64,000 bases of DNA from Nereocystis luetkeana. Lineage: Eukaryota > Sar > Phaeophyceae > Laminariales > Laminariaceae. Positions 14,358-63,404 of this stretch are shown piece by piece. The notes under the pieces are model-generated. The model was not told where the DNA came from and made no database searches. It saw only the letters and a list, made by a program, of their open reading frames with translations. The stretch covers positions 310,001-374,000 of the forward strand of contig JARUPZ010000009.1 of assembly GCA_031213475.1 (NCBI GenBank). Reading direction: 5' to 3'. Numbering within the stretch: position 1 is the stretch's first letter; the number at the start of each line of letters is the position of its first letter. The position numbers and the translations under genes are program-made.

Positions 14358-14450
14358 TACCGGGTAAATAGGACCCACGGCAAGTCAAAAAACTACCAGG
14401 TATATGTTTCGCCATTTTTACCAACAATAGTTGGTCCTACTTACCGTGAC
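14358..14450. mobile_element. MITE-A copy, degenerate, with TACCAGGTA inserted
   Basis: It keeps GTAAATAGGACCCACGG at the left and ATAGTTGGTCCTACTTACCG at the right, but the outermost CGGGGG is damaged. At 14394-14402 the usual ACCTATATATTTCGC reads ACTACCAGGTATATGTTTCG, a clean 7-bp gain at a TA. R4 copy 2 starts at the next base. Confidence 0.75.
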
Positions 14451-15116
14451 CTGCGCGCACACTATCATCACGAGAGAAGCAGTCATACTTTGTTTTTCCT
14501 GGTATTGTTTTCCACGAGGCAGAATAGTATCTACTTGTTATTAAGGTCACTGGTCTTTGTAGTTTAACGAGATGTATACCCTTCATGGGGAATAACCCAC
14601 GCAATTATCAGGGACGTGGTATCATAACTGTTGTGCTGCACCTTTTTTGTGTCAGACAGCCCAGGAAGAGATGGCGATCGTTGATATTCGTGTGGTAGTA
14701 AGGTTCGATTGCTCAGTTTTCACTGCATATCCGCGAGTCTTCACTCTGACAGCACTCCAGATAGCAGGCAGGTGTGTTTCTCTTTCGTTTTCACGACTAC
14801 CGTGCGTTTCGTACGGTGCAGGCAGCACTCCAGACAGCAGCCGCTGTAGTCAGCAGCCACAACTTGGTTAGTGGCGGGAACGGGGATACTCTGTTATGTT
14901 ACAGTTGAGAGGATATACCCGCGGCCATGTTAGTTCAGTTTGCACATTGGTTTTATCTTGTGTGCGCTTTCTTCGTCTCGTGTATTTTTAGCCAGCCGAA
15001 TTTCGTTTTTTTTTGTGGTTTTTCGGATCTTCCTAGGGCTCCAGCACCTTCGTGTGACCACGGACTCCTTCGTCAGAGAGTAAATGTGAAAACAACAGCA
15101 ACAACAACAACAACAA
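14451..15116 (+). repeat. R4 repeat, copy 2
   Basis: Near-identical partner of 10337-11003, ending in the same (CAA)n run. MITE-A sequence sits on both sides: a degenerate copy ends at 14450 and a MITE-A right end (CTATGGTCCCCCGTAA) starts at 15117. Confidence 0.8.
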
Positions 15117-15132
15117 CTATGGTCCCCCGTAA
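15117..15132. mobile_element. MITE-A right end only
   Basis: CTATGGTCCCCCGTAA is the exact right terminus of MITE-A, joined directly to the (CAA)n tail of R4 copy 2. The left half of this copy is missing. Confidence 0.7.
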
Positions 15133-16182
15133 TAGCATTATGGCGTTTGCGAAGTTCATAATACCTGGTATGGTTTCGTTCGGGCTATTTCTATTCTCCC
15201 GATCCCAAAACATCACCAACTTCCCAAAATCAGGACTTAAAAAATGACTGGTACTTGGAGGACAACTACTCTGACGACCGAGTACTGCTGTAACATATTG
15301 TAAAACGAACTACCAGGTACAGCAGTACTTGCAGATATCTCACTCCCTGAGCGAGCTCGGTTGGTGCATCCCTGGTCTCTCAGAGCTCCCACTTGGGAAT
15401 CGCCTCCTTTTATTACTTGCCGGACGTTTCCAGCTGTTCTTGGTTTTCTCCATTTCTTTTGGCGCTTTCGTTGTTTTCCCCGTTTTTTCGTTTTGCTTCG
15501 TGTACGTGCGTGTACTCGGAGCACGGCACCGCGGGCGAACCCGGCGCTGTCGCGGGTGTCAGCGGGGGGGTTGCAAGGAGCGCGGCCGCCGTTTTCGTGG
15601 CTAGGCGTTGCGTGTGCCTCGGGGCAGGAGGCATGCATGCATGACTGGGTTCTGTCTGGCCTCCATTTGAGATGTTGGATAGAATACGTACGAGCCCATA
15701 AGGGTTGTTCGGGATTGCAGGATAAGATTCAAGCGGAGCTTATTCTTGCGACCGGGCTGAAGTTCAAAGAGAGAGCGACGCAGTGTGAGCACCAACATTG
15801 TCGAGCTGGCGATGACGGCCACGGCGAGCACCGGGCTTCACGCGAGGCGGGCGACGGGGCTCACTGTGGCAGAGAGGGAGGAAATCTTTACCCGGACCGA
15901 ATCGGTGGCGAGGTGGTCGCGAGAGGGGCGGGCGGCGTACGACGCTGAGAGAGAAGCTCTGCTGTTCGGTTTTTTTCTTTTTTAGCCGGTGCAAGGTGTT
16001 CCAATCAGACACAAAATTATCAAGAGGACGGGAATTTGTTTTTCTATCTGTATTTTTCGCTTCCATGTTCATTGTTTTTGTAGTGCTGCTGTGCCGTGCT
16101 GTGCTTTCTCTTTCGTACATGCAGCAAACATATCAAAAGAAGATAATAAGCTGGGGTATGTACGTACATACGTACGGCATGT
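15133..16182. other. Unassigned; GC-rich overlapping open frames
   Basis: Several frames overlap at 15361-15985 on both strands. In one plus frame there is W-I-E-Y-V-R-A-H-K-G-C-S-G-L-Q-D-K, and in another a charged stretch T-V-A-E-R-E-E-I-F-T. They could be exon remnants, but no splice model, start or family match supports a gene. Confidence 0.35.
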
Positions 16183-16222
16183 GAGCGAGCGTAGCGGGCG
16201 GAACCGCCCGCGACGCGAAGCG
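16183..16222. repeat. GC-rich hairpin (GAGCGAGCGTAGCGGGCGG)
   Basis: GCGGGCGG pairs perfectly with CCGCCCGC across AA, with further partial pairing outside. A near copy at 17844-17890 lies on the far side of the GGGTC arrays. Confidence 0.7.
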
Positions 16223-16259
16223 CATGTGGCGTCCGAGCTGTTTTTTCCAGGGCTTTTTG

Positions 16260-16610
16260 CGGGTCATGACCCGACCCGCGGGTCGGCTCAACGGGGTTTC
16301 AAAATGTCGCGGGTTGGGTTGTGTCGAGTCATTTTTTTTCAAAATGTCGCGGGTCGGGTCAAATAATAAACAAATCTCACGGGTCGGGTCGGGTCGGGTC
16401 GGGTCGGGTCGGGTCGGGTCGGGTCGGGTCGGGTCGGGTCGGGTCGGGTCAAGAGGTTTTGAAATCTCGCGGGTCGGGTCGGGTCGGGTCAGGAGGTGTT
16501 CAAAATGTCACGGGTCGGGTCGGGCCATGACTCGTGAGATACGGGTCATTCGTGGGTCAGGTCATCATGACCCGCGATTTTTTTCCGGCTAACCCGCACG
16601 CCCGACCCGC
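16260..16610 (+). repeat. GGGTC satellite array
   Basis: Runs of GGGTC, including an uninterrupted run of about 14 units near 16380-16450, are spaced by a higher-order word GGTTTTGAAATCTCGCG or TTTCAAAATGTCGCG. The same two-level structure recurs at 17390-17715 and 63.4 kb. The G-rich strand could form quadruplexes. Apparent G-S-G-R-V repeat peptides are artefacts. Confidence 0.9.
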
Positions 16611-17890: not shown

Positions 17891-19070
17891 TTGTACAACC
17901 GTAGTACGTTATGCTACTACTCTACTTGAGAGGGCATAAGGGTAAACAGCAGTACAATCAACTCGCATACGCACTGGTATACATACCCTAAGCTACATAC
18001 TCCAAGTACATATGCATACCCGCCGAATACTCAGGGTGACAGTAATAGTCACGAAGCAGCAGACAACAAGAAGCAGAAGCACTACTCATACGGAAAGCAC
18101 TTGTATTACTGTTACAGGTGCCGTCTGTTTGGTTTGATTTGATTTGATACCAGCTGACCAGGTACAAGAAGAGCAATGCATGGCGTTACATTACTCCTAC
18201 GCAGAATCGATTTGCGGACTCAGTCATATATACCGACACACATAGATCTAAAAGGTGCGAGTACGCATTATTAATAATAATAATACCTGGTGCTACAGCG
18301 TTGGATGAAACAGGGTAGCAACAGCAGTACGAGGTACGTGTATTGAAAAGTCTACCTCAGGCCCAGGTGTAGAGACCAAAAGTATGCCAGATGCCAGGTG
18401 CCGTCTCATCAGGAGTCGGGGGCGTATTAATTATGCGGAGCATGTGCGGTACCAGGTATACCAGGTACCAGGTATCGTATCAGGTAACTCGGGTACGCCC
18501 CGCGCCCCGCCCCAAAACCTCAGTACGAGTAGCCCGGGCTGCCGAAGCTGAAATCGTGGTCGTCACAATTTGTTAGACGTTTTTTCCCTGCGAAGCTCTG
18601 AAGTAGTTGGTAGGCTTCGTGGTCAGTTGTTGTGGCCTCTTGCCATCACATGCAGAAAACAAGCCCCCGCGACTTTCAGATGGGGAGGGTACATATTAAT
18701 GTTGAAGTAATGACAGGTCTATTAATACCTACAAGCCACAACAGCAGCAGTCGCGTTTGTTTGCACAAGGGGCGGGGTGCTGTCTATTTGTACGTAGCGC
18801 ACAACGCACTTCATGCAGCACAGGCCACTGTCCGTCAAGGGGCAGTGACACTCAGAGTACGATGCACGCTGTTTGCAATGGCTTAGGTCGACCAGAGCAG
18901 TCGACTTGACACACTACTATTTTACAGAGATACTCAGGACGGCAGCAGCGGCAGCAGCAGCGCGAACAGAGGTTCGCTTCACACAGTCACAAGGCAACAC
19001 AAACAATACAGCAAAAAGAGAGAGACGAGCCAACACTAAAACGTTGATACAATGGAAAAAAAGTGCTCAC
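17891..19070. other. Unassigned; clustered TACCAGGTA words
   Basis: Three TACC(A/T)GGTA words lie within 18450-18480, with GTACGAG and TATTAATA words around them. On the minus strand near 18880-18740 there is a short cysteine-rich frame (C-H-C-P-L-T-D-S-G-L-C-C-M-K-C) after a CAG. I cannot tie it to a gene. Confidence 0.35.
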
Positions 19071-22097: not shown

Positions 22098-22212
22098 CCG
22101 GGGGGACTATAGTAAGTACCAGGTAGGACCTACGGTATACACAAAAAAAAACCATATATTTATATTTTTTTACGAACAATATTTCGTCCTATTTACTATC
22201 AGGTCCCCCTTA
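22098..22212. mobile_element. MITE-A copy with TACCAGGTA inserted in its terminal repeat
   Basis: The left end CGGGGGGACTATAGTAAG continues as TACCAGGTAGGACC, where sister copies have TAGGACC. The right end is CCTATTTACTATCAGGTCCCC. The insertion at 22117-22125 is exactly TA to TA-CCAGG-TA. Confidence 0.8.
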
Positions 22213-25200
22213 ATATTAATACCTGGTACCTGGTAGGTGTTTTCGTCATGATACGAATCCTGCTGTACTTTGGGCTCATAGTATTATCCATGTATACACG
22301 AAAATGTGCCGGCAGCTCTGCGGGCCAGGAAACTGGACCCGACCAGGATTCTTGCCGCAGCGACGCGGTGGCCATCACCCCTCCCCCCCGTAATAGTGAC
22401 GGGGGCGCCTAAGGGGCAGGCACCAGCGGACAATTTGCACGTACCAGGTATCTGTTTTACCACCTGACACCTGACACCCTGTTCGCATTTGGTACTTTGA
22501 CCCCGAAGTGGGTCCATCCCATTTGGTACGTTTCTCCCACTTGGTGGTGTAAAAAGGTCATGAGCCGTCCGCAGGAGCCGCCCGAGGCCTACTGGGCACG
22601 CAGCCTGATCCTATTTTTTACCATGTAGGTCATACAAATCTACAGCAACTCCTGCCGTCCATACAACATACGAGCGTACAGCAGTATTGGATTTACGTGC
22701 AAATCTGAATAGCCTTGCACGTGCATGCAATTTCTCCGCCTATGCGGTCGCGGGCGCGCTGACTGATCCCACGTCATTTTCCCTGTTTTTGCATATGAAG
22801 ACAAGAACCAGCCGTCCTCTGCGGGTCAGACCCACCTCGTCATAAATAGCAGAGGCCCTCAGATGCTCTCATCAGTAGGAAGTAAAGTAAGGTATTTTCG
22901 GGGGGACATGCTGCCAGTATGTCCGGGTTCGATGCTGCTTAGACTACGACTACTCGCAGTTCTTGAGGATTCAATCCTGTGAGTACTCTGACGTCGTACT
23001 CTGTACCAGTATACCATATGCTTGGAAGTATTTCGGGCGTTTGTATCGCGGATACTGCTTGTTGTACTCGAGGTTCTGTACTTTGCCTGTACCGCCCGTG
23101 CTGGTATTGCTAGGATTTCGGCCGTCATTACTGCAAGATTCTCAGCAGTATCAGCAGTCATGGTGTGATCGCGCAGGAGTATACACGGGCAGTATCATCA
23201 TGACGCGCGTTCGCTTTTGGGAAAATCGAAGAGACTCCTCAACTGTGATGCGATCGAAGCGGTTATCGATACTCGTCTTTGCGAGCATACTACGGAAGTA
23301 GTAGATGGTACCAGGTATACTATACGAGGAGACCGGTCGTTTAGAACCTTAGTGCCAGAACTTCAGAGGGAAAGCGTGGCGAAACTAAACTGAACTACTC
23401 TTGTAACGGACGATTCATCGGTGGCTAGTGTTCACTACGACCCAAACCGAAACAGGTAGAGACGAAGTGACGCGAAGTGAAACTGCATAGCCATCTCGAC
23501 CCCACTAGGACTACGGTTCGGTTTCCACTCAAATTCTAAGCAGTTTACACCCGAAACGGAATTGCGGTTCTAAAAAGCTTGACGTTCGAGCCACAAGGCA
23601 GCATATAGATGTTGCATACAAAGATGAGTGTTTTGGACGCGTCGAGCAGGGGAGGAAGGGACGATATCAAAGCGCTCTTTCGACGACGTTTGCGGGTTAT
23701 TCTTGGAAGCAGGGTGATGTCGTCGACAACGATCGGATGGTTAGGGGGGGGGGAAAGGCATCTGCGGGGGGAGGGGGGGAGGGGAGGGAATGGGAGGGGG
23801 AGGGAAGACACCAAAACGCTCTTCCATGCTTTTTTATCGTAGCAGGGGTGCACGTATCACGAAAATCCGAGACCCCACCCTCCCTCCAAATCCCCAATAT
23901 TATTTTCGGGAATCACAAAGGGGGGAGGGGGGGACGTACTAATTTGTTGCTCGACTTGTTCATTTGACCACTGGCAGGGGGGTGTACTGAAGTCAAGTAA
24001 AACAGAGCTTTAAAAATATTCGGTTTTCGTGAATCCGTCCAGTACTCCCATTTCAGTGGTTTGTTTTTCATTACGGCCTTTGCAGGAGTGGGGTATCGTC
24101 GTCTGTTTATTGTGTATGGCCCATTGTCGTGCGCCCCTCCGCCAAGGCCTCTTTTGCCCTTATCGTCGTGCTTTGAAGGACGCCTAGATTAAGAAACAGG
24201 AAAACTGCTGGATGCCGTGTTTCGTATGTGATAATAGGTGCGTTCTAGACTAACTTCAGTATCACAACTTCCGAATTTCCTATTCCTGCGTCAAGGAGTC
24301 TTTTATCCTTGTCGTTCAGTACAGGACGCCTCTAGAACGACAAATCCCGATTTCCCTTTCTTTGTTTACATTTTAACCTGCCTTTCTTGCATCTCGTTTT
24401 CTTCTTATTAATAGGTGCCCTATAGTATTATACTATAGCAGTGTTTGTGTCGTCGGTTGCGGTCAGTTCAGGGGGCAAACCGGGTCCATTATAGCTTCTT
24501 TCCACCGCTGGCGACAACCAATTGCACCCCAGGTGTGCAAAGAAAAGGTTGCACACCCCCGCCCTGTTCCAGCTTGGCACCCTCATCCTCACCTCGACCT
24601 GATGTCACCCGGACCTGAGCCCTCTAAATTGTGCCTGGTTACGTGCTACGCTGCAATACAGGCGAGGGCAGCGCAGTGCTCACTGCAGATAGTACGCTCT
24701 GAAACGATGCAGGAAAGGCCTGTCCCCGTATTCGACGCCCAAAGAGACTCGCTACACCAGTATGTACACGCACATCATTTGTACCTTCCCATAAAAAAAC
24801 AAGTTGTTGGGTTTTATGAAAGCTGCGTACTTTTAGTAGACTATGATGTACCTGATACCAGGTACTGCTGTATAGTCGTACGAGTACGTGTAAGTAGTTT
24901 CTGCAGGGTTGACGTGACAAGATACCTTCGACTGTACGGTAAAAATCGGTGAATTCGCACAGGGCAGGGGTGCGATGGTGCCATCGTCTTTCACGGCTCG
25001 ATTTATCCAGGATGGGAAGGTTGCCACCACGTTCGGGATGCTCGAAATCTCATCGCAGGGGCTCCTGACATACGGTTGTTTTTGAGGCACTTATATCCCA
25101 GGTTTGCGAACGTGGGAGAGTGTGGTGGAGTCGGTTTTTAGAGGCTTCACTCCACAGAAGTGATTGGTGTCAGTGTTTTTAGTCTTGGTTTCTATACGCA

Positions 25201-26370: not shown

Positions 26371-26589
26371 AAGTGCTTGCTATGTGACGATACTGAGGAG
26401 ATCTGGGTTTCGAAAGGGAGGAAGCGGGAGAAAAATCAGGGCAAAGAAAATATTTGGGATGGAGCAAATTGAATCAAGTGTGGAACTCCCCGTGTTTTTA
26501 CGTATTAATAGCTACCTGGTATGGCGCCCAGAAAGCGTGGAAATAAGGTGCTGACTTCACAAACCCCAGGCAACAATCAATGATTGTAC

Positions 26590-28590: not shown

Positions 28591-29547
28591 AATATCATCA
28601 CCGTAGGGGGAAGGAAAGTTTCAGGTTCGCGACGAAACCCCTGCGTCATCAGAACAACACCATTTTCCCGGGCACGTCTGAGGCTGGATCATATGCCACA
28701 TATTATATTGGGTAATTGTCTTCATCTGCAGGGAGGTTTCAGGGTATTTGGTCCCATATTTTATCAAAACTGATCAGAAGTGCGTCTAACGGGGCCTGTG
28801 TATTGAGAAAAATGTTCCTTCTCGATTTTATCGATGATCGTCTTTGACCAAATAGACTGTTGCTGCGACTTTATTCTACCACGTGATAACATTTCAGAAG
28901 GTGATTGAAATCGCTTTTGCACGAGACATCGGAGGCATTGTACCATTTTGTATGGGTTAGTAGACTGGGCTCTTGACGGGTCACGACGCTACGTGCTTAG
29001 GTACGCTTGTACACAGCTGGGCTCCAGCACTTGTGCATCGGCCAGCACTCATGCATGCAGCTGCTTTACGTCAGCAGAACAACTTTGGGGACGAATAGGA
29101 GGAGACTACAGCGGGTTCAAAACAATCTAACGTTTTTTTTTCCCACTACGACCGCCGCAAGAAGCTCATGCTCCGTGAGAGCGAGAGCTCCTTGCTGCTC
29201 CAGCAACTAGGAGATCCCTTACCCAGCTCCCCAGGGGGTTCCTCATTCCGTTCCCCTTCGAGGAGCTGGTGGTGAAGGTTGATCGCCCAACCCGGCGTTA
29301 ATCGCTGGTTCGTGTCGTGGAGTCCAAAATCTCCGTTGTGTGCTGTTTTATTTTATTCGCCTATGAAATCAAACCAAAATCACGACAACATGGCACATCG
29401 AATAACGATGTGGTGGGATTTGTTGCTGGTCAAGTATCCGATTTGCTTCCGTTTTCAATCACAAAAAATAATACCTGGTACTGTATAATATCCAGCTTGA
29501 GGGAGTTCGCTTTACACGGCAAGTTTCCGCCTGCTGGGTGTACTCAT
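28591..29547. other. Unassigned sequence
   Basis: No gene is supportable. A plus frame at about 29105-29275, with D-R-R-K-K-L-M-L-R-E-S-E-S-S-L-L-L, follows a T9-CCC tract and resembles a terminal exon, but nothing else supports it. Confidence 0.35.
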
Positions 29548-30212: not shown

Positions 30213-30966
30213 CGGTACTATGAAGAGTAATATCTCGCAGTACGATTTCTCACAAAAGAGACGAAACAAAAATGGGTTTCCGCACAGGTATTAAGGCGTT
30301 GTTCTAGCGGGGACAGGGCCCAATCCGTCTAGACAGATGGAAAGGTCTTGACGGATTTGTTAACTGATTGCTTGACGATTGCCCATCTCCTGACATTTTT
30401 TACCCCTACAATGCCGGGACGGAGCACGTCGGGTTCCACCGACCAGGGAGATATTGCACCGTAGATTCTGGTCATTTTAGTTTCGATTGGAAACGGAGGG
30501 TCTTATCTGCTGGTCCGAACCCATCTGGATGTGATAGATTAACAGGCCTCTAAAAAACAGTGCAAAGGCGAACGAGACTAGCGTTTGCAATGTTGTTTTG
30601 CGAGGATGGTTGGAGGCGGATAGTAATATTTTGATGAGGCTCATGGTTCCTTAGCATTGTTGAGATCGCAGGCGTTTTTTCGTGATGGAGGTTAGTTTCC
30701 AGGTCGTGGTCAGTTGGGTGGGCACATATTCAAGATACACCAATGGTGCAATATACCCATTTTTATGTCACCCCGTGATCAGCCGATTTACGTTGTATTA
30801 TCCCCGGCCTGGGTTTATGTTGTACTTACAGTACATACATACCTGGTATATACTGGAAAAATTACCGTGAACTATTCCCAAGTAGTTGTGTTTTCTCGGG
30901 ACAAACCGGTTCATGCAGTACCTAGCTGGTGCTATCTACCATATGGCCTTGAACGGGATGATCTTC

Positions 30967-31807: not shown

Positions 31808-31925
31808 CGTTGCCACGTACCTGGTATGCAGTAAGCACCGCAGTGGGCGGAGCCATGCCATGTCATCATACTATTTAATAGATACGACAGGCACGACACA
31901 CACATTCTATGAAGTAGAGAAACGA
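31808..31925 (+). repeat. R1 repeat, right part
   Basis: Continuation of the split R1: CACGTACCTGGTATGCAGTA, ATGCCATGTCATCATACT, ATACGACAGGCACGACAC, ACATTCTATGAAG. A TACCTGGTA word lies inside, at the place where the 33.7 kb copy has TACCAGGTACCAGGGTA. Confidence 0.8.
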
Positions 31926-32354
31926 GAGGAAACAATCAAAGCGGAAACAAAAACAAAGTAGACAAATCGAAAGAGAAATACAAAAAAAATGAAAGCAAGG
32001 ACTATTAATAGAAGAAACAATCTGTCGTGCCCCCCCCCGCAGGCGAGGTGGCCAACACTTGAAAAAGAACGAGCTGGAAGAACAGAAAAAAAATAACAAA
32101 AACACCACTGCTTGTAAACAGAGTGAAACAAAGAACCAGGGAAAAATAACAGGCAGACCAAAGCGCAAAGCACACTCCAGGTGGCGGCAGCAGTTTGTGG
32201 CACGACTAATAGCCAGGACCTGTCCTGTAGAAGATTCTAAGAACTTAGAGGAGTGCTTTTGGAGACTGGTTGTCGCGTTCGCCGTGGGAGCAAGAGGGAA
32301 GTTTACCAGTTATTCGATACTATGGTTGAGGGTCACCTGTGTACAACACGAACG

Positions 32355-33537: not shown

Positions 33538-33790
33538 CATTAAACCGTTCTTTCTTCCCGTCGGCATTCAGCACAACCAGTGTCCGTGCCGATTCTTTAA
33601 TCCTAAAGAGAAACCCGTTATGTGGTCACTAAACTATTTATACGCCACAGAGATATTAATGGTACTGTACGTTGTTACGTACCAGGTACCAGGGTATGCA
33701 GTAAGCAGAGCGGCAGTAGACAATGCAATGCCATGTCATCATGCTGAACATGAAAGGCACGATATACACATTCTATGAACGAAAGAAAAC
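33538..33790 (+). repeat. R1 copy, most complete
   Basis: From CATTAAACCGTTCTTTCTTC to ATACACATTCTATGAACG, including CCACAGAGATATTAATGG, TACGTACCAGGTACCAGG and GACAATGCAATGCCATGTCA. It gives the uninterrupted join across which SINE-A inserted in the 31.3 kb copy. Confidence 0.8.
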
Positions 33791-36472: not shown

Positions 36473-37394
36473 GCTGGCCGCTGTGTACGCTTCTGCGCGT
36501 GGTGTGGTGCAGCAGCACCTCGAGCAGCAACACGCAGCAGCAGCAGCAGCAGCACAAACTTTTTTTCACACTCAGCACCTGGCCACGCTTCTACTTTTTT
36601 GCGACACAGCAGCAGCAGCGGCACAGCTTTTTCTTTACGAATAGATTTTTGTTGATGACGTGGGTCCTTTCCCCCCATCGCTGATTGGTTGATTTTCTAA
36701 AGATTTTTTTCCCCAGAGAACGACATGGGACATTTTTTTTCCAAATTCTACGTCTAAAAAAATTATAGTCCCACACCTAACTGTATTACGAGTCGTACTT
36801 GAGCATTTTTTTATTTTTTAGCTGCTGCCATCTGTACTGCTGTTTCCAACTGTTATACGAACGAAGTCCGCATTCGCTTCCCATGCTTCTCCCGCATATT
36901 CTAGCTTTGGTACTATTAATATCACGTTCATCAGGATACATGTCTCAATCCTAGTGTCAAGGTGCGTGCACCATGTTTTCTACGCGTGCTTCACCTCTTC
37001 TTCTTACTTTTGCGTTGCGTGCAAGGGCGGTCTTTTGAGATCTCTAGGCCAAGGTACATAGACTGGTCTGCGATGGGCAATTCATCTTCTCCCCACTTCC
37101 AACTGAAATTTTCCGGGTTCACCTCGTCTGCGTTACATACAACTACCAGGTACTGCGCACTTCTGGGCGTTCGCCGTCATCCTATGTTGTATTATACTCT
37201 ATTATTATATTTTTAATAAGGTCGCACTCGAGTGGGGAGGCGGGGGGGGGAAGCCTTTCTCTGTGACCCAATGGTTGATCTGAGTTGCGACCATTTATAT
37301 ACAGGGGCGGGAGAGAAAAGCGGGACGAAGGTAATAAATAGGATTGGCAAATATACAGAAAAAAATGGAAGATTAGGGGCATTGTCGGACAGAT
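36473..37394. other. Unassigned; CAG repeats, SINE-A tail-like segment
   Basis: CAG repeats lie at 36533-36556 and 36608-36620. A SINE-A-like tail (TCTGTGACCCAATGG, TGATCTGAGTTGCGACC) is at about 37228-37340. No gene is supportable. Confidence 0.4.
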
Positions 37395-38723: not shown

Positions 38724-38826
38724 TACGGGGGACCATCGTTAATAGCACCTATGGCACACATAAAAACCTATATATTTAGCCATTATTACTAACAGTATTT
38801 GGTCCTATTAACTATGGTCCCCCGTA
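38724..38826. mobile_element. MITE-A copy
   Basis: TA-flanked: CGGGGGACCATCGTTAATAG at the left mirrors CTATTAACTATGGTCCCCCG at the right. The centre reads AACCTATATATTTAGCC, the uninterrupted form of the site that holds an insertion in the 14.4 kb copy. Confidence 0.9.
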
Positions 38827-39152: not shown

Positions 39153-39769
39153 CTTGCGTCCCGCTCCCCAAGAGGGCGTCGGCTGTCGGCTGTCGACCGA
39201 AGTTACGTGATTTACCGATTATCCCGCAAGTGCTGTTAACTTCTGTAGGATTGCAGGAGTATACGATTATACGAAACAAAAAGAGAATAACTACTTTCAA
39301 TACCAGACCACTCCTTCCTAAGGCGAGAATCAGAAACAAAAGAGAAGGCTGAGATTTCCGGACGGATTTTTGAAAAGTACCTCGTACCTGGTACCTGGTA
39401 TTGATTACGTTTACTTTTTTTTTTAGTATAACCCCTCCGGCCAATTCTTGAAACTTGAAAACAAAACTGGTGTGTAGTGCATACCCCCCCCCGACTTTGC
39501 ACTTCCGGTGCATCCCCTGCTTCCCAGCGGCCCACGCTGGTTCGGTGCGCGAGGCTGTATTGGTCATCTATTAATAGTATAGCGTAGTATAGTGTGGTAT
39601 CGGCACGTGTTACCTTTGAAGAGCCCAAGCCGTTCACCCCCACCTACCAACTACGCCGGGACCCAGGACCTCTGCAACCAAAGACCCTGACGCTGGGCGA
39701 TGCGGCCCCAGCTGTACGAGTAAGGTGTGCAATGGCGTGACTTTCACGGCTACCACTTTCTTCTCTTCT
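39153..39769. other. Unassigned sequence
   Basis: No gene is supportable. A doubled TACCTGGTACCTGGTA word is at about 39386. Confidence 0.4.
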
Positions 39770-39927: not shown

Positions 39928-41219
39928 AAGACGTTTTGCATGTTTGAAAATAATACACACGCAAGCGCTTGGAGTTGGAGTTATTAATTGGCTGGTGACT
40001 ATCTGACTTAGTTGGTTAATCGGCCGGCGCTATTTGGCTTCGTTGAACACCCGAAAATCTTTGTAAAATAAAGCCAACGGCCTTCGTGCTATCTCCACCG
40101 ACATCGCCCACGAAGGTGGGTTTTGGTGCGCCATGAGTTGCAGTGGACCTCACAGCTCTGCCTCTCTCTGAGCAAGTCGTCTCTCGTGGAAATGCGCACC
40201 CTGTAGTAGATAAGCCTTCCATCCTTCGGGAATTCCAAATAGTCGGAATGTTGACACAATGCTACGAATACAACTTAACTATAATGTTCAGCCAACTACT
40301 ACCTAGCTCGCTACTTTCAGCCATGTAGCTTGTACAGCTCTCGGTCTTTGTGTTCGGGACAGGGTGTTCGCTATTTGTCGCGAAGCTGGCCAACGAACTG
40401 ATTTATCCACGCGACTCAGCCTGCGTATGATGTTTTTCAATGATGCAAGATTGGCTAGGTCAAAGGTTATCCTTATTCAGAAGCCCAGGAGACTACTTCC
40501 CTAACGAATCGCGTCGACGGCAGGACATTGGTCGTAGTGGTCCTGCGGTCGAATCTCACGTCCACCATGAATACGCTTTTTGAGAAGAAAAACCAGCGAA
40601 TTTACTCATGTCGAGAAATGTGATAAAAACTCTCTTCCTGGGTCCCCACCAGAGATTTCTGAGAAGTTTAGACGACAGTAGGCGCGCATGGCCCCATACG
40701 AAGGCCAAGGACCACGCTGGTCTCTACGGGGGGGGGGTGGTACAAAGCTTACCTTGGGTAGGTAAGAGACTTAGGCCTACCTTTCGTGTAGGGGCCCTTT
40801 CCTACTCGGCGTGACTCCGACTGTGTCCCGGTGGTGTGTGCTTGTGACGATGCTTGAAGGTTGTAGTTCTGTGTATTTCGTTGCTTGCTTGCAACGCCGG
40901 GATGTCTTCAGAACGGAGGGGCAGGATAATCCTCGTGCAGGCAGGCGATAGCGCCGGCCAGGTATGACGAAGGGGGATTCTGCCTCGAATCATAATGCCG
41001 CAGCAGGGGAGGGGGCAAGGAAGCCCAGAAAGTCGGGCGGTTGGCGCGGGTGCTACTTTTTCTGTATGACCTGACCAACTGTGAGCTCGTCGGCGGTTTA
41101 TAGTGGGCCAACTCCAAGCTCTGCCTCTAATAGGTGACAGAAAAGGACCCAGGAAACATATATGTGTATTTACCGTACAGCACGCACTGTAACAGATCCC
41201 TTCGGACATTTTACCTGGT
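39928..41219. other. Unassigned sequence
   Basis: No gene is supportable. A tRNA B-box-like GGTCGAATCTC lies at about 40550 without a foldable tRNA around it. A minus frame at 40802-41209 has no motif. Confidence 0.4.
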
Positions 41220-43940
41220 ACCTCATTTGTTTGAGGTGCTTCTGGAGAGAAGGCCAGCAGCGGGAGCGGTAGCGGCAGCTCCCCGTAAGCCTTTTTGGAG
41301 CTTTTAGGTCAACCGTGAGCTTGACACATCCACTCGGCCTTCGCTGGGTACTACAGTAGATGGAACCGGCCCGCGGGCCGAGCCCGGTGGGTCGGGTCCA
41401 CCTGGGGCACAGAGAAGGTGAAGCGGATATCCCATCTTGACGGGTTACTTTCGAATTCCCAAAGCGTGAACGGGGGGCTGCCGCTCCCGCCGCTCCCGCC
41501 GCCTGCCGTGTCAGACACCTTCCGTCCGGAAAGCGGGCCGGTTCCAGTTGCTACGATCGCTGCTATGCTGCGGGAGCCCCCCGCTCGCCATCGGGAGCTT
41601 TCAAACATCCCGCACGAGTAACGCCCCCACTCGGTCCCGCCTGGCGGGCCGGTTTCACCTACTACTAGTAGCCAGCGAAGGCTTAGTGGATGCATCATTT
41701 TCGCGTTACTTGGAAGCCCCCAACGGGCGTACGAGGGGCTGCCGCTCCTGATCTTGCTGCTGCTGCCGCCGCTGCTTCCGCAGCCTCCCATCTTGGATAT
41801 TTTCTGTCGGGAAAGGCTGGACCCAGCGGGCGGGTTGCAAGTACTACGACCGCTCCTACGCTGCAGGAGAGCCCCCCGTATGCCATTGGGAGCTTGCAAA
41901 TATCCCGCGCGAAGGTCGCTTCCACTCGGCTTTCACTGGGGGCTGCAGTAGGTGAAACTGGCCGGCCGGGCGGATGTTACTCGCGATTACTTTATATCTC
42001 CTAAAGGGCGTACGGGAGGCTGCTACTGCTGCTACTGTTGCTGCTACTGCTACCGCCGCCGCCGTCACTGTCACCTCTTCCGCCACCTCCCATCTAGGGC
42101 TTCTGCTATTGGGCAAGGTTGGGGCTAGCGAGCCGGTTCCACCTACTACCACCGCTGCTACGCTGAGCAAGCAGCGCCCATTGTAGGTGGACAGGTCACG
42201 CTGCACGCAGCCTTTCCGGACAGAACGTGTCGGAGAAGGGAGGAAGCGGAAGAGTCGGCGGCGGCGGCAGCAGCAGGAGGAGCGGCAGCGGGAGTGTCCA
42301 GCGGGCGGGTTCCGCGTACTACACAGCGAGGTACCTCGTGGGTGCGTCGCTCGTCCAGGTTGAATGACAGCGCCCTAATGGCGACGGCAGGCTGTCGCGC
42401 CTGCTGCCGCTCCGGCTCCTGCTGCTGCTGCTGCCCCCTCGCCGTCGCCCCTTCCGCCACCTTCTGACTCGGACATGTTCTGTTGCGCAAGGTTTGGCCC
42501 ATCGGGCCGGTTCCACCTACTAAAGCCGCTGATACGCTGAGTGAGTAGCGGCCGTAGCAGGTGAACCGGTCCCCCTGCGCGCAACCTTACCAGACAGCAC
42601 GTGTCCGAAGGGGTGAGGCGCAAGAGGCAGTGGCGGCGGCAGCAGTAGTGGCGGTGGGAGGGTCCAGCGGGCTGGTTCCAGCTACTACCCGGCGAGGGCC
42701 TGATGTATGCGCCGTTCGCGTGGGTTTCGTGGAAGCGCCCAAAAGTCGACGGGGGTCTGCCGCCCGTCCTCCTGCTGCTCCTGCGGCTGCTGCCGTGGCC
42801 GGTCCGGCTCCTGCTGTCGCTCTTGCTGCCACCGCCGCCGCAGCCTCTTCTGCCGCCCCTTCAGTCTCGGACGTGTCCTTGTGCAGAAAGAATGAGAGCA
42901 GCGGGCCGGTTCCAGCTGCAACGACCAATTATTGAACCGGCCTGCTGGGTCCTACCTTGCCGAACAAGACACGTCCAAGCCTGGAGGTGGCGGAAGAGGT
43001 GGCGGCGGCAGAAGCTTGGACGGCAACAGCAACAACAGCCTGTTTTGCTACCTCCCGTCTCGCACGTTCCCTGTGCGGAAAGGTTGGACCCAGCAGGCCG
43101 AATGGGCCCAGCGGGCTTGTTCCGCTCACATCGACTCAAGCGTTGAACCTGCCGTCTGGGCCCGACTTAGCGTGCCTGTTCCACACGCTGTAGTGCCCAG
43201 CGAAGGCCGGGTGGATGCGTCGTTTGCGTGGATTACGTGAAAGCCCTCAAATGGCGTACTGGGGGCTGCCGCTGCCGCTCCTGCTCCTGCTGACACAGCC
43301 GCCTTAGCCGCCTTGTCTGTCACTTCTCATGCCCATCGTGTCCTGTCCAGAACGAATGGGACCAGCGGGCCGGTTCTACCCTTTGCAAGTAAAGGTTTGA
43401 GCCGGCCCGCTGGGCCCAACCTTTCCGTATAGTAGACGTTCGACACTGGAGGTGGTGGAAGAGGCGGCAGCGTCGGCGACGGTAGCGGTGGCAGCGGCGG
43501 AAGCAGCAGGTTACCACTTGCATATGCTACGAAGCCGTTTGATTGGTCAACTGCTTTTTTTTCGGCATGTTTCATTTGTCAACATACGCGCACACGCAGA
43601 TTTTTCACCCTGCTCCCATTTTGGCGCCCTAGTCGCACGCCGACCTAACCCAACCCGGACCTGAGCCCTCCAATGTGATCCTGGGGATACTGGTAGCCGC
43701 CGGCAGCGTCCACCAAGGCACCTTGATGTGACGCCGACACAAAGCGAGGGCCAGTTACATTGTACGGCAAAGCGAGGGCCGGCGCCATACAGGCAGCAAA
43801 CTTTGTTTTTACCCCGAATAAGTGGCAGCCTACCTTAGCAGCAGCTGCGGCGGGAGCACCCACCCGCCTCTTGAAGCACCTCCCGTCTTGTCCGTGTCCT
43901 GTCCGGGAAGGTTGAGCCCGACGGGCCGTTTCCACCCTTG
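41220..43940. repeat. GC-rich array of inverted modules
   Basis: A module with GGAAAGGTTGGACCCAGCGG and GCCGGTTCCACCTACTAC recurs in both orientations about every 100-250 bp (for example 41537, 41645, 41826, 42129, 42300, 42503, 42669, 42900, 43108, 43365, 43917; inverted at 41363, 41954, 42560, 42934, 43397). CTG/CCG/GCN-rich spacers lie between. Another word, GGATGCGTCGTTTGCGTGG, recurs near 42715 and 43212. Many overlapping Ala/Gly/Pro-rich frames on both strands result from this and I call none a gene. It may be stacked palindromic elements. Confidence 0.75.
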
Positions 43941-45487
43941 CTGCAACTAAACGATGTGGAGAGAGACATGCCCGCTAAGAGACAACGTGCCCTAGCGTGT
44001 TAAACCACCGTTCATACCTGGTAACACATACCAGGTATGTGATATCACACCCGCTAGGACTTATTTCGAAGCTGGTTTTCCCGATGAGCGATGGGGAAGG
44101 TGCATACACCAAGCGATACATCTTTGGAGAAGTTTCGTTAGCGTCTTTCCAGGGCCACCAATTTTGTAGTTTAGGAATGTGTTGAGGGAGGGTGTTATCT
44201 TACGTATTACGAGGGCAGGTTCGGAGATAGTAGTTTAAAACCTCCCGGTATTAGGTTGGTGTCCGTCAAGACAAATTAAGGCTGCCAAGAGGTGAAGGAC
44301 TGAGTGTTTCAGACGGAAACCTAGTGGCTTGGCGTCCGCCTAACCTGCGTCATGTAGGACATGTTCGCTGGGTTGGATCTGTACTAAACATACTTCGAAG
44401 TATAAACAGATCCCGCCCGTCTCATTACGGCAGGTTGGGGTACATAGATGATCTAGAGCATACACCTGCGGGTAGATCGTGATATGTCCAACGTGTGAAG
44501 AGCTTGGGCGTTTGCTCGAGGACACTTACCTTTTTAAGTCTCTTTCGTATTGACAGTAAGTGTCGCGATGTCTGGCGTTTTTTCACGTCGTGCAAGTTTA
44601 TATATTTTTTTCACTCAGATACTCAGATGCAGGTACGATGCGGTAAGGTAAGTAGGAATAATATGGAAATGCATACAGCACCGGCGTACTTGTCGTATAC
44701 AGCTGCCCTCTACCACACATACGTCGTACGAGTATATGATGCTGACATTGCGCTTTTGAGCTGGAAGCCAAGCTCGCGAGAATACGCGACAAATCTGAGA
44801 AAAAACAAACGATCGCATGCCAAGGTGCCTACGTGCTTACCTTTGGGCCATAGCGGAGGCCTTCCTCGTCTTCCTTGTCCATGAGCTCGTGGAAGGTCTC
44901 ACGCTCGGCACGCGTTTTTTTCGCGGGGTGACAGTGATCCTTGATTTTCGGGATCACCGTGACGACGCGAATGGCATGCGCGTCGAGCCTAAGAGATGCC
45001 ATGAGTCAATGGAGCTGGAGGAGGAGGAAGCCCTCCCCTGCATGTCGAGAGGCAAGCGCCGAGGCATGCGACCCAGTGTTCTCTGCAAACTTGTTGCGCC
45101 CATGATGAAAAGTTGCGGGTGCAGAGGCTTTCTACGATAGAGGTTCACCACAAATGTTCTGAGGCTCCTCACTTCAGGAGCTTCGCACCTCACCCTAAAA
45201 CTGACTGTAGCAAAAATTGAATTGCATCGCGGCGAATAATCCCCTGGCCCGAGTCTACAAAACGTTTTTTTTTTTCGAAGTGAAGATTGACATCCCGACG
45301 ATATGGGATCAAGGAACCCCGTCTTCCAAAAAAAAAACGGAAATGTGCTACCTGTATCGTAGAAGGGGTCTGCATTGGGCAAACGAAAAGGGGGGGGACA
45401 CGTGCTGTCGCGGCGACTACAACCTCGAAGTAGGCAGTCCATATGGTTGGTGCATTGTGCTGGCTTTGTTTGTTGAATGGTACTTAC
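43941..45487. other. Unassigned, with a diverged R2 fragment at 44350-44480
   Basis: No gene is certain. If the exon-like frame at 45488-45888 is real, its intron and next exon would lie here on the minus strand; TTTTTGCTACAG at about 45210 is an acceptor-like site, followed by a frame continuing to about 44955. Two TACC(A/T)GGTA words lie at 44018 and 44030. Confidence 0.35.
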
Positions 45488-49581: not shown

Positions 49582-49917
49582 GTCCTTGTTTTCTCTTTCC
49601 GGCCCGTTGGGTTTTTATACTCGGTACGTCGGCACCTCATTCGCTTACCTTTAGTATCAATAGTTTGCAGTTGTTTTGGTTTTGCCTCTATTGACAGTCT
49701 GCGACGACCAGGTACTGTGTACCAGGTATATATATACCGCGAATATGAAGAAGTTGAGTTTTTTTTTTTTGGCTTCCTGTGGCCACATAGTTTGTTCTGG
49801 TACCAGGTAGCTCTCTGTTACAGGGGAACATAGTAAGTGGTCAGGATCAAATATGCTTTTTTAGCATTAATACTACTGCTGTAGTCTTAAAAATAGTGGT
49901 GCATATATTGGTTTGTG

Positions 49918-50345
49918 TCTCTGTTGTGTGTTCTTCACATTAAACCGTTCTTTCCACCCATCCACATCCAGCACAACCAACCAGTGTCCGTGCCGATTCT
50001 TCAATCCTATTAATAGAAGAGACACAAGTTCTGTGGTCACAACACTCAAACACTCAAAACTACGCTGCAGCAGACATACTACAGAGTACAAAGTGCGTTG
50101 GTAGTTGGTACCCAACACATATCTGTGGCGTAGCTTTGTGACCACAGAACTTGTATCTCTTCTAGAATTGAAGAATCGACACGGACACTGGTTGTTCTGA
50201 ATGCCGACGGGTAGAAATATCGGTTTAATGTGAAGAACACACACACACATATACGGCAAGCAGAGTAGACAATGCAAGACCATGTCATCCTACTGGATGT
50301 GACAGGCACGACATACTCACTCTATTAAATATAGAAAACAACGTA
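49918..50345. repeat. R1 foldback (two copies, opposite orientation)
   Basis: A plus R1 copy occupies about 49925-50060 and a minus copy about 50105-50245, separated by roughly 45 bp. The arms share GTCACAA...CTTGTATCTCTTCTAG, GATTCTTCAATC and CATTAAACCG words. An R1 right part in plus orientation follows to about 50340. Confidence 0.85.
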
Positions 50346-52692: not shown

Positions 52693-53556
52693 ACGCATAC
52701 GGAGAGAAACAAGAGAGTGTACGTATGGTCTCTCTGATTGGTTCAAAGTTGGCCAAAATCAGTTTAAATCTAGACAGAGTAGAAAAACAGGTATTCCTTT
52801 GCCTTTTCGAGCCAAAATCAGTTACAATGTCAGCCTGGCCAATAGCAGGGCTCCTCGGGTGTGTTTTGTACATGTTTTTAGCATGTACCTGGTAGCTGAT
52901 TTTGGCCGAAAAGTAGCCAGGTATACCTGAGTTTGGCAAAAACCCTTTATAAGAATATATCTACAGCAGATACCATCATCACTACTACTGAGCAGTGGTA
53001 AATAATAATGACATGATGTGTCTCTGTTTTAGGTAACAACATTAAAGGGGGCTTATTATCCAGGACGGAGATGAGGAACGTTCTTGAATGATTCCCTAGC
53101 CCGGTCCAAAGGTTGGGCCTCATGGTTTGGACAGTTGACTAACACACAAGCCCACATGTCATCAAAGCCGTTCTTCTAGAAAAACAGATCGGAGGAGTAA
53201 GACTTTATTTGAGACACCGCCCGGCCCACCCCACAAACAAACACTACCGAGTACTGCACCATATATGATCACGAGAGGCACCAGGTACTCCCGAACCTGA
53301 TGCTCAAGTTTTTTTCTTGGATAACCGCCGGTCGAAAAGACCCGAGAGTCCGGTTTTCTTATATTCTCAAAACACACAAGAGAAACCGGACGACACCATG
53401 GGGCTAGTTTCGCCGTCGGGGTGGCAGCACTTAGCACCCGTCGGTGGGTGCTTCCACCATTCTTATCGCACACTCTACGACAAGATGAAAAATGGTCCAA
53501 GAATACACATCCGTGCGTACCTTGTATATATTAATGGTTTTTCGGATTTTCCTAAC
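52693..53556. other. Unassigned sequence
   Basis: The word CCAAAATCAG recurs three times near 52750-52900 (once inverted), beside a TACCTGGTA. No gene is supportable. Confidence 0.4.
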
Positions 53557-56540: not shown

Positions 56541-57152
56541 CACCTGAGATAAGACAATCGGGTGATGCATGTAAGCGGTCCCGAGAAAGTTAACACTTCC
56601 CACTGCGGATGCGAGCCAGAGAAACGACAACTCAGATTCCACCAAAAAACACGAGGCGTTAAATGTAGAACTAGCCAAGTAATAGCTAGTCGGTGACTTA
56701 ACGTGTCGTCAGCCAACTGGCAGCCTATCACCCAACCGTTGTTGCTCATCAGTAAAAAGGTGACTGTCGTACCTACCTGGTAGCCAGTATGCCAGTATAG
56801 ATGATGCAGCACGCGCGTACCTCTTTCCGTGGAACACATCCTCTGACCAGCAACCTCGGCTGCTTGAGTGGTCGATGCTGGCATCGTCCTCCCCCCCCAC
56901 CCCCCTATACTATGTGGGTTGGGTTGACGTCGGTTGGCAACGACGCTGAAGAACATGCTGCTCACTACGTGAGCTAGACAAGCAGGGTACCGCTTTGTTG
57001 AGGGGGGGGGGTTGGCGGTCGGTCTCAGCTGGTTGTCGAGAAGTAGATCGTTTATGCGAGGTAAATAACCTTTACTCCGCACAAGTGGGAATTATCGTAT
57101 CGTGTAGTGTTCATGTTCATGGTGAGGCACCCAAGACACAGTTACATAATAC

Positions 57153-57833: not shown

Positions 57834-58285
57834 GTGAAACGCGTACTATTTCACAAGGCGGAGGCATTTCATCTACACAGATCTATCAGCTGCAGATAGA
57901 TCACATAGATCCTAGACTGCCGTCATGAGATATTGTGCAGAATTTGTATCCAACCTCAACTTGAACATTATTTTCAACTTGAACTTCGTACCAGGTACCA
58001 AGTTGTCCCGGGATGTAAGAATCCTTCATTGTACTGTTGGTAATATGGAATGGAAACGGCTCTTGCGTTTCGCGGCAGAGGGTAGAGTGGTATTCCAACT
58101 TGTGGCCCAAGATTAAGTTACGATGCATGCTCCGGTATGGTGGTGCCTCTAATACTCTCCGAGGCTCGTCGCTCTAGCGGCTCTGTACCCCAAGCGAAAG
58201 ATGGTCTCGAATAATACTTCGAGGCGACTCGGTGAAAAGTGCTATGGTCTACAGTATTTATCGAAAAAGGGTGAAAACACACTGT

Positions 58286-58388: not shown

Positions 58389-58578
58389 CTACCAGGTAGT
58401 TGTATTACCAGCGATGTTGGGTAATTTTGTGCTGGAGGAGCCCCATTCGACACAAATGTTTTTGTCCTAAAAGGGCCCGTACCTCGATCGTAGCGTAATA
58501 TACAACGTACTAGAAACCCAAACAAACTTAGTATACAGCTTCAACTGCAACTTTCAACTTGAACTTGAACTTGAACGG

Positions 58579-61080: not shown

Positions 61081-61609
61081 GGTAGTGCGTCACCCATTTA
61101 CCGACTACCAACTAGGGGCATGATGAATATCATGGGGTCTTGACCTGTTTTGTCAAAACCTAAGTGACTCAAAACCTCATACGGGAACAAGCACTATTTT
61201 TTTTTACTCGCATAACTTGAAGTTTGTACGTCTGCACTGGACGAACGTTCGGAAACCACCGCGTTCTCGCTCTATAATACGTCACGAATTGGACGTGCAA
61301 ACCACGTGCAAACTCCTAAAACCCGTACGTATCGCGCTTGATTGTATCAATTGTCTGAGTTCTGGCGACCGCACACGAGCCCCAAAACCACCCAAGTTTG
61401 TGGCGTTTTTTTGCTCATTTTCATGTACATCGACTGCATATTTTCACAAAGAAAATGTTGAAAGCATGAGCACTTCCCTTGGTTTGTGGACTCACTCCAA
61501 CCCAAACCGCACTTCAATTGAGACTCGTGGGTCTAAAGCGCCAGCTATTCTACGATCGACTCAAGCAGTAAATGTGGCTAACAAGCGGAATAGAAAGACG
61601 ATGTAGAAA

Positions 61610-62280
61610 AGGGCGCGCCAGGCAGCGATTAAAAAAAAAACGGTGGAAGCTTTTATCATGCTGGTACGGGCAGCACCATGGCGCAAGCCGGCCTGGATAG
61701 TCGCGCTAAGAGTGCTGGAGAGCGTCGCGACTACGATGAGATAGAGCGACGCCAAAGCCGGGCAGCTCGAGCATGTGATGCCGCCGTTGCTCTTGCCTCT
61801 TGGGGAAGCGGAAAGCCGTCAGGTGGCGGCTAAATTTGCTGAAGAAAAAAGAGCTGCGAGGGGCCAAGAGATTATCCTGCCTCGAGCAGCAGCACCAGCA
61901 GCAGCACCAGCACCAGCAGAATCGACAGAAGAGCGGAAGCGCAGAGAAGGCGCTGAAACTGAAGGTCCGCAGCACGGAGGGCGCTGGAAGCCGAGGGTGG
62001 CGAGGAGGCGGGTGGAGGCGGCGCGAATAGCGAGTCTGGAGGGGGAGATAGATCGCAAACGGACAAGGTGTTGGTAAAGGCTGTCATGCCGGGAGGCGTT
62101 TCTGAGCGGACCATTGAAAACACATTCTCCGTCACTCCGTTAAGGTCGAGATGGAGGACATGCAAATGGCAACCTATGCGGAACGCACATCTGACCCGAG
62201 CCGGAACAGCGGGCCTATCATCCATCCGGCGTTGCTGCCGCTGCTGTTGCCGCTGCTGCTGCTGCTACTCTGTTGATTGC
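61610..62280 (+). pseudogene. Decayed relative of the coiled-coil ORF at 35.9 kb
   Basis: Fragments in three frames line up in order with 35888-36644. They are a basic R-A-R-Q-A-A-I-K-K-K-T-V-E-A-F start, an Ala/Arg-rich helix, E-A-A-R-I-A-S-L-E-G-E-I-D-R-K-R, then S-R-W-R-T-C-K-W-Q-P-M-R-N-A beside a GCTGCTG run. This parallels T-A-R-C-K-M-C-N-T-Q-P-I-R-W-A and the CAG run at 36.3 kb. Frames are broken repeatedly. It is nested in a B56 intron. Confidence 0.35.
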
Positions 62281-62719
62281 TGGAAATGAGCTGGAGATAA
62301 TTTAATTTTGGTAGTGAAAAAATAAGAGTTTTGATGGCCTCTGCTGTCTTTCAGTTTGGCTGTGATTGGTTCAGAGTATAAAAAATAATTTATTGTTCCA
62401 TGTGACAACCATCGTTCTGGGACGTAAAAGGGCCGAAAAAAGTATCTTAGGCACTACCCATACCCTGACAGTACACAATTATTCAGAACCCACAATAATG
62501 AGTACCCCCCCTTATGATTTACTCACTATTTACCTGTCGTCTCCTGAAGAGTACCAATTTATGAAATCATATAATTAATACCTGGTAGCTCAAACAAGAG
62601 TACACGAAAAAAAAAATTACAGGGGTTCACAAAAAACAAAAACGACGCCACTCTATTCATTTTAGAGACCCAGACAGGGGTGTGTGTGAACTCGATAGGA
62701 GAGATGTACTCGATCTCAT

Positions 62720-62990
62720 GGCGGGGTGTACTCGTTACCATGCATGGCCGTAGCCGTATGGCCATAGACCCTCGGGTCCCCACAATGCCGGGACGGAGCA
62801 CTAGGCTTTTTGCCGACAAGGCAGACATTGCTCGCACCAAACGCGAAGCACCATGAGGTGTTGGGCGAGTCGCATGAAGGGTATGCTGCATCCTACTAAG
62901 AGAACCAATTTTGAGGCGGATTTTCTTGCATATGGATGATAGCGTCAATTATTTGGTGTTTTTTCTGGCGTGACCACTTCCAGAGACAGC
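62720..62990 (+). repeat. R3 dispersed repeat copy in the last visible B56 intron
   Basis: CCATGCATGGCCGTAGCCG to TCTGGCGTGACCACTTCC, same orientation as 25.97 kb. The shared minus-strand frame is shifted once near 62810. Confidence 0.82.
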
Positions 62991-63283
62991 CTTGTACAAG
63001 TGATCGGTTAAGAATCAACCGGGTAGATGGGTCGCATGAAAAAAATCCGAGTCCACCCTTCTTTGCACGCTTGTGGCGCTGAGTGGGGTGTGTCTGATTT
63101 TTGTTTTTGTGTTTTTCTGCGCTTGTGTGCTTCGAACATAAGGCTTCCAATTATGAGGTTATGGAAACCCTGGAATGATGACCATCGCTCCCCGGGTTGA
63201 CGGTTCTAACGGGTGGGCATCATCAAATGCTGATCGACCGCGGTTCAATCCCTAGGTTGACCGCCCTTGGACTAATAATATTT

Positions 63284-63404
63284 CGGGGGACCATAGTAAA
63301 TAGGACCACATCTTGTTATTTATAGTAAAAATATCGAAATATATACCTAGGTTTTTGTCTGTACCGTAGGTCCTACTCTGGAGTATTTGATATGGTCCCC
63401 CGTA
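63284..63404. mobile_element. MITE-A copy carrying three TA-bounded insertions
   Basis: CGGGGGACCATAGTAAATAG and TATGGTCCCCCG frame an element longer than its sisters. Extra bases occur at 63317-63324 (TA-TTTA-TA), 63344-63349 (TA-CC-TA) and 63374-63385 (TA-CTCTGGAG-TA); sister copies have a single TA at each place. Confidence 0.85.

Follow-up and report, generated by a model that had tools for sequence, protein, structure and literature searches.

Probable transposon excision scars of the form TACC(A/T)GGTA at TA dinucleotides in the genome of Nereocystis luetkeana

The nine-base word TACC(A/T)GGTA occurs at high density throughout the genome assembly of Nereocystis luetkeana, where alignable copies show that it arises by the gain of seven bases at a TA dinucleotide, and our analysis favours its interpretation as the repair scar left by excision of a TA-targeting cut-and-paste transposon (probability about 0.8). 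The word was described in the initial annotation of a 64,000-nucleotide stretch of this genome, hereafter the window (positions 310001–374000 of contig C9, JARUPZ010000009.1), and was followed here through samples and through the entire assembly (GCA_031213475.1; 465,085,209 bases in 1,987 contigs). The first sampling drew stretches from 20 contigs, each 10–22 Mb long. The samples comprised 264 kb (the window plus 20 stretches of 10 kb) and larger sets of 282 kb and 333 kb, in which sampled loci carry L-numbers; W denotes A or T.

Abundance of the word and its gain at TA dinucleotides

On the plus strand of the window the word was matched at 44 sites, 23 with centre A (TACCAGGTA) and 21 with centre T (TACCTGGTA), where the initial annotation had counted at least 35. 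The 264-kb sample held 108 copies in comparison to 2.7 expected from an order-3 Markov model with simple repeats masked, and the 465-Mb assembly held 182,395, or one per 2.55 kb, in comparison to 1,744 copies of the reversed control word ATGGWCCAT; the over-representation claimed for the window is therefore borne out in the sample and genome-wide. Genome counts are slightly high because the assembly has redundant contigs; for example, 8,197 bases fetched from C809 (L038) are identical to part of C2 (L037), and C872, C1099 and C1378 share the same DDE_1 score. Among 782 occurrences of CCWGG in 333 kb, 139 had TA on both sides, by far the commonest context, the next having 20. The overall balance of A and T at the centre is trivial, as it follows from the strand symmetry of a palindromic word. 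Example positions in the initial annotation lay within 10 bp of a site with the exception of 49708, where only a half word stands and the full word lies at 49720, and 22209, for which a tandem pair was found at 22220/22227; sites at 1242, 3948, 4093, 39392, 49801 and 58390 were absent from those examples.

Alignment of all 124 sites of the 282-kb sample against that sample (in which L007 and L008 share about 1.2 kb) gave an exact 7-bp gap beside a single TA at 7 of the 17 sites that could be aligned, in 29 of their 67 alignments. Other TA-N5-TA words given the same treatment had such gaps at 10 of 277 sites and in 31 of 2,383 alignments. The other 107 sites had no aligned copy through the site and lay outside the gap comparison. 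Some gap-bearing control words resemble decayed or variant scars (e.g. TATTATTA at 31378), so that the control rates are, if anything, high. The cleanest case was L024:7063, TTCTA[CCAGGTA]CTTCC, which stands filled against five empty copies (one each in L011, L021 and L026, two in L023). Both copies of the MITE-A element that had been offered as examples of the insertion (14394 and 22117) showed a clean 7-bp gap against other MITE-A copies, and the earlier view that the word was inserted at TA, rather than being ancestral, agrees with the empty paralogous sites found in the alignments. At alignable sites the unit event is a 7-bp gain, TA to TA-CCWGG-TA.

Recurrence of this event is strongly suggested at one TA within the dispersed repeat R1. 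Genome-wide, GTTGCCACGTA followed by CCWGGTA was matched at 634 filled places (left flank matched) and the empty form TGCAGTAAG at 361 places, the latter by a longer and stricter pattern with both flanks matched. Since the repeat fixes orientation, the centre base is informative at this hot site, and a hand count of the first 100 of the 634 filled copies listed, in one orientation, gave 50 A and 50 T. Such a mixture is not expected of one inherited insertion, which would give one letter, with the caveat that two R1 founder copies, one per centre letter, could also yield it. Half-words at the hot site numbered 44 against the 634 whole words. At L037 the two arms of one element bear CCTGG and CCGG at the hot-site TA, the CCGG possibly having arisen from CCWGG by later change, and a search for a TTAA scar at this TA found 0.

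The scar word has a target preference of its own, as TA stands at −7 in 24% of scar flanks outside tandems (background 7.7%) and T is avoided at −1 (7% against 20%). Tandem copies (TACCWGGTACCWGGTA) occur 15,917 times genome-wide, against 2 for the control, which is about 12 times the approximately 1,340 expected at random TAs. A hand count of the first 59 plus-strand tandems listed gave 40 with equal centres (23 AA, 17 TT) and 19 with mixed centres (14 AT, 5 TA). The mixed class indicates that slippage alone is insufficient to make tandems; independent re-insertion would account for about two thirds of them and duplication for the rest.

Two further kinds of word were also recorded. The +1 form TACC(A/T)GGGTA was seen in 11 sample cases, including 33687–33696 and 1158–1167 of the window, all with centre A and 10 of the 11 with T next; of the 6 read at the R1 hot site, 5 had centre A. 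The words TACAGCAGTA and TACTGCTGTA had 25 sample sites (e.g. L028:2345), about 20 times expectation, with one clean +8 empty site, while their mixed forms were found once (TACAGCTGTA) and not at all (TACTGCAGTA) in the sample.

Sister scars and resident TA-flanked elements

Three further palindromes between TAs, namely TTAA (TATTAATA), C(A/T)G (TACWGTA) and CCGG (TACCGGTA), behave like CC(A/T)GG. Clean gaps were present at 3 of 9, 5 of 16 and 6 of 6 alignable sites, respectively, the rates for other words being 10 of 234 (TA-N4-TA) and 4 of 195 (TA-N3-TA), although these site numbers are small and some sites may sit in copies of one repeat. With palindromes halved, observed and expected counts in 264 kb were 60 and 5.8 for TATTAATA, 15 and 3.6 for TACCGGTA, and 96 and 39.7 for TACWGTA; genome-wide, CTATTAATAG was counted 22,282 times against 267 for its reversed word. 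The flanks of these scars differ, TATTAATA favouring TAC before the word and CCGG flanks resembling those of CCWGG in score (0.05 bits, where 5,000 random sets had a mean of −0.89 and a maximum of 0.11). Other candidates were rejected as scars: TACCAGTA and TACGAGTA were enriched with clean gaps in 0 of 8 and 0 of 21 alignments, TAGGWCCTA had 0 of 337, and TACGTA had 7 of 56 from 2 of 23 sites, which may be simple tandem duplication.

Resident elements were found whose ends correspond to these sister scars. MITE-A begins TA/TTACGGGGGACC (also TA/TTACGGGGG, TA/TTACGGGGGACCATAG and TA/TTAC, the slash marking the boundary). This boundary is demonstrated at L027:1486, for which an empty site exists, and exact matches to the 18-base end of MITE-A number 26,369 genome-wide. 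Scored against the TATTAATA target matrix, its 20 TA-preceded flanks reached +0.79 bits (5,000 random TA sets: mean −0.82, maximum 0.37); they show no fit to the CCWGG matrix (−0.98). MITE-A appears to be the source of the TATTAATA scar, both the scar and the element being present in very large numbers. This scar of MITE-A's own and the remaining members of the series go beyond what had been described in the initial annotation.

A profile search for DDE_1 (PF03184) gave 28 places, several with identical scores. The pogo-like loci L029 and L031 share the boundary TA/CAGTGGGGGGCCC in a family that starts TA/CAGTGGGG; L029, which ends CCCCACTG/TA, looks like an internally deleted copy, and L031 also carries an HTH_Tnp_Tc5 domain. 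Locus L039 (617–7591) holds a TA/CCGTAATCATGCG DDE_1 element into which a second member of the family is nested in inverted orientation, TA standing on both sides of each, and the CCG-ended pogo-like DDE_1 family starts TA/CCGTAATC. By annealing arithmetic, the first three bases of the resident elements predict the sister scars (TTA to TTAA, CAG to C(A/T)G and CCG to CCGG); for the CAG and CCG families the link to a scar is a prediction from these terminal bases.

Two other elements were noted. A short abundant element, TTAACCCTTTTAGAACCGCAGTCCCG, with inverted ends lies at 9366, 13868, 32470, 33440 and 60983 of the window and at many sampled loci, and is presumably piggyBac-like. The element at 16247–17714 (ends CCAGGGCTTTT) was rejected as a TA element, as it sits in T-runs with an overlap of about 9 bp and not at TA; its ends CCAGGGCTTTTTGCGG surround CGGGT arrays, the site is empty in L017 and L028, and the overlap of about 9 bp falls in TTTTTTCC.

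Proposed origin of the scar and its alternatives

If the word is an excision scar, the terminal repeats of the donor would start CCAG(G) or CCTG(G) and its excision would leave overhangs of 4 or 5 nt. Those of two identical ends would anneal by C:G pairs around a central A:A or T:T mismatch, and resolution of this mismatch to A or T at equal chance would place CCAGG or CCTGG between TAs. For MITE-A, two 3-nt TTA overhangs would pair through TA to give TTAA. Because the scar would recreate the preferred TA-N5-TA target, new insertions would adjoin old scars and 7-bp tandem runs would grow. The excision-footprint interpretation is supported by analogy with the sister scars of the same genome, and the donor probably belongs to the pogo-like (DDE_1) group. 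The residents, of what we take to be the pogo/Fot/Tigger type, share DDE_1, TA flanks and terminal repeats CAGTGGGG or CCGTAATCATGCG, although no copy read starts CCAG or CCTG. The proposal of the initial annotation that the word is an excision footprint thus holds in so far as sister scars match the ends of resident elements, whereas a resident CC(A/T)GG-ended element was found neither in 333 kb nor in the 14 of 44 R1 half-sites that were read.

Scars of this kind are already known, and it is the scale, the length and the 7-bp tandem growth that are unusual here. In sections of PMC3878927, the Tc1/mariner elements Sleeping Beauty and Frog Prince are described as leaving the footprint C(A/T)GTA with TA duplicated and an A/T-ambiguous centre, overhangs in the superfamily being 2 or 3 nt, and an excerpt of PMC3432063 gives the excision footprints as TACAGTA/TACTGTA. 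The TACWGTA scar of N. luetkeana is identical letter for letter to these described forms, whereas the main scar, with 182,395 copies, has five bases, CC(A/T)GG, and is two longer than that described for Sleeping Beauty, the annealing logic being alike. Excision of Hsmar2 leaves non-canonical footprints according to a portion of PMC3770610, so uniform scars are not a given. In Ectocarpus, parts of PMC12477816 report many short non-autonomous Mariner-Tc1 elements driven by autonomous ones, and MITE-A is apparently likewise short, non-autonomous and driven by autonomous elements; the words 'footprint' and 'excision' have 0 occurrences in the main text of that paper. Judging by titles and abstract openings, none of the papers listed in the literature searches describes a single 7-bp footprint that has built up across a genome and grown in tandem, and occurrences of the word's letters among the matches listed look incidental.

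Searches for the donor gave results that weigh against an excision origin. In 333 kb, where MITE-A was recovered as a positive control, TA-bounded families with a CCAG or CCTG start were not encountered (one such scan listed 40 of its 101 groups). The 14 R1 half-sites read, which were picked and not random, showed no shared terminus and comprised six +1 G variants, two TA to CA changes, two altered tandems, two small changes or deletions and two cases of unrelated sequence. A candidate end, TACCTGGCGATCC, was rejected, as this exact 20-base start from an unusual half-site occurs at four places only, in the same orientation. Profiles gave 0 matches for PF13358 (DDE_3, classic Tc1) among 30 candidates scored, and 0 for PF01359 (Transposase_1, mariner) among 3 candidates scored with a control that rang nowhere, so that absence of the latter is not demonstrated.

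Further points on the same side concern the scars themselves. The 3-nt overhang that fits the sister scars gives no CCWGG by perfect annealing, and the model has to assume a stagger of 4 or 5 nt. The footprint of Minos is 4 nt long (CGAG), and a 4-nt stagger is therefore not without precedent. Four TA/CCGTAATC end flanks showed no significant fit to the CCGG and CCWGG matrices (P 0.16 and 0.23) and fitted the TTAA and CWG matrices better (0.013 and 0.015); these flanks were consequently set aside as support for CCWGG. The R1 half-sites are mostly A-centred (37 of 44). Equal-centre tandems exceed half (40 of 59; P = 0.004 against 1:1), and the model has no account of why, in the first 59 listed, A-then-T pairs (14) outnumber T-then-A pairs (5). 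Finally, TACGAGTA is 4.1-fold enriched yet lacks clean gaps, which indicates that enrichment alone is no proof for TACWGTA (2.4) or TACCGGTA (4.2).

Other donor searches were made. Among 113 half-words TACCWGG without TA, there was none whose downstream sequence recurred behind different upstream sequence. Terminal-repeat pairs beside DDE_1 genes had CAG ends (L029/L031) or CCG ends (L039), with none at the other loci fetched. The loci fetched numbered eight in all, each with 1.5 kb to either side, plus longer stretches at 4 of the 28 places, two being the same sequence. The giant element at L037 was rejected as donor, since its long inverted arms end elsewhere. The CC(A/T)GG donor may be rare, extinct or diverged.

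Alternatively, a machine that carries no element, such as a domesticated transposase or a programmed repair enzyme, could open TA and seal it with CCWGG. The failure to meet a donor in 333 kb and in the half-sites read is what this explanation would lead one to expect, but only 14 of 44 half-sites were read, resident elements with matching ends exist for the sister scars, and a palindrome with a mismatched centre is the product expected of annealed identical transposon ends; we regard such a machine as improbable, though it is the best placed of the alternatives. Copying of the word inside several repeat families, rather than insertion, would suit those sites that lie within repeats and the 634 copies of one R1 site that carry it. 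It is very unlikely in view of the 39 of 44 window sites through which no copy from the 282-kb sample aligned (38 of 44 at a looser cut), the 50:50 centres among the first 100 copies listed for the hot site, where orientation is fixed, the single filled copies among empty paralogues and the 15,917 tandems. Slightly less credible again is a conserved functional palindrome under selection, protein-binding or splice-related, for which the perfect symmetry outside the centre, the great frequency and the CCAG/GTA on one strand of each copy could be cited; insertion differences between repeat copies, tandem runs and flank preference speak against it, and a series of unrelated palindromes behaves likewise. 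That the word is ancestral and TA the derived, deleted state has the least to commend it, as the excess of filled over exact empty hot sites (634 against 361) involves a longer, stricter empty pattern, L024:7063 is one filled copy against five empty diverged copies, 22117 is one filled against seven clean-gap copies, and deletion gives no account of the unrelated flanks.

Table 1. Scar sites and MITE-A copies in the window. Scars were assigned by exact word match unless stated and have strand '.' throughout; coordinates are those of the window.
Feature	Position	Strand	Basis or remark
TACCAGGTA scar	1242..1250	.	exact word
TACCTGGTA scar	1961..1969	.	exact word
TACCTGGTA scar	3948..3956	.	exact word
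Tandem scar TACCAGGTACCAGGTA, 7-bp step	4086..4101	.	
TACCAGGTA scar	5915..5923	.	
TACCTGGTA scar	5936..5944	.	
TACCAGGTA scar	6837..6845	.	
MITE-A copy flanked by TA dinucleotides	7409..7512	+	both ends
TACCTGGTA scar	8459..8467	.	
TACCTGGTA scar	8865..8873	.	
TACCGGTA scar (+6)	10419..10426	.	repeat copy at ~14453 empty
TACCTGGTA scar	12677..12685	.	
TACCAGGTA scar	13155..13163	.	
TACCTGGTA scar	13287..13295	.	
TACCAGGTA scar	13692..13700	.	
TACCAGGTA scar within MITE-A copy	14394..14402	.	clean 7-bp gap in 3 alignments
TACCTGGTA scar	15162..15170	.	
TACCAGGTA scar, then CAGCAGTA	15311..15319	.	
Three scars: TACCAGGTA + tandem TACCAGGTACCAGGTA	18450..18474	.	
TACCAGGTA scar within MITE-A copy	22117..22125	.	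clean 7-bp gap in 7 alignments: 3476, 7514, 53655, 58289, L010, L013, L015
Mixed tandem TATTAATACCTGGTACCTGGTA	22214..22235	.	
TACCAGGTA scar	22442..22450	.	
TACCAGGTA scar	23309..23317	.	
TACCAGGTA scar	24856..24864	.	
TACCTGGTA scar	26513..26521	.	
TACCTGGTA scar	29472..29480	.	
TACCTGGTA scar	30840..30848	.	
TACCTGGTA scar at R1 hot site (CACGTA/TGCAG)	31818..31826	.	clean gap in 4 alignments
TATTAATA scar	32003..32010	.	clean gap vs L026, L023, L011
Hot site: TACCAGGTA + +1 variant TACCAGGGTA	33680..33696	.	
TACCAGGTA scar	37144..37152	.	
MITE-A copy, start TA/TTACGGGGGACC; apparent donor type for TATTAATA scar	38723..38827	+	
Tandem scar TACCTGGTACCTGGTA	39385..39400	.	
TACCTGGTA scar	41212..41220	.	
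TACCTGGTA + TACCAGGTA, spacing 14 bp	44015..44037	.	
TACCAGGTA scar	49720..49728	.	
TACCAGGTA scar	49801..49809	.	
TATTAATA scar	50008..50015	.	clean 6-bp gap in 8 alignments
TACCTGGTA scar	52886..52894	.	
TACCTGGTA scar	56774..56782	.	
TACCAGGTA scar	57989..57997	.	
TACCAGGTA scar adjoining MITE-A copy end	58390..58398	.	
TACCTGGTA scar	62579..62587	.	

Consequences for the genome

A bolder proposal, which we put forward tentatively and hold to be somewhat less probable than its opposite, is that the scar is self-reinforcing: each footprint would recreate the TA-N5-TA target and scars would accumulate to hundreds of thousands, lengthening 7 bp at a time, with an element that is rare, has vanished or was never present, an enzyme inserting CCWGG alone. 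This would imply an excision stagger of 4–5 nt, above the 2–3 nt given for TA-targeting elements in sections of PMC3878927. It would also provide a steady source of 7-bp frameshifts and of ready-made CCAG/GTA junctions. Each scar carries CCAG/GTA on one strand, a possible ready-made splice junction.

Laboratory work on excision footprints has mostly dealt with small numbers of them at once. The approximately 180,000 scars of one type, with tens of thousands of others, amount to a natural archive of how excisions were repaired, targets chosen and mismatches resolved, and they let past transposition be counted even where no donor survives. Strain polymorphisms are predicted at scar sites. In this lineage, 7-bp insertions at TA form a large and site-biased class of mutation that bears on alignments, on reading frames and possibly on the birth of splice sites.

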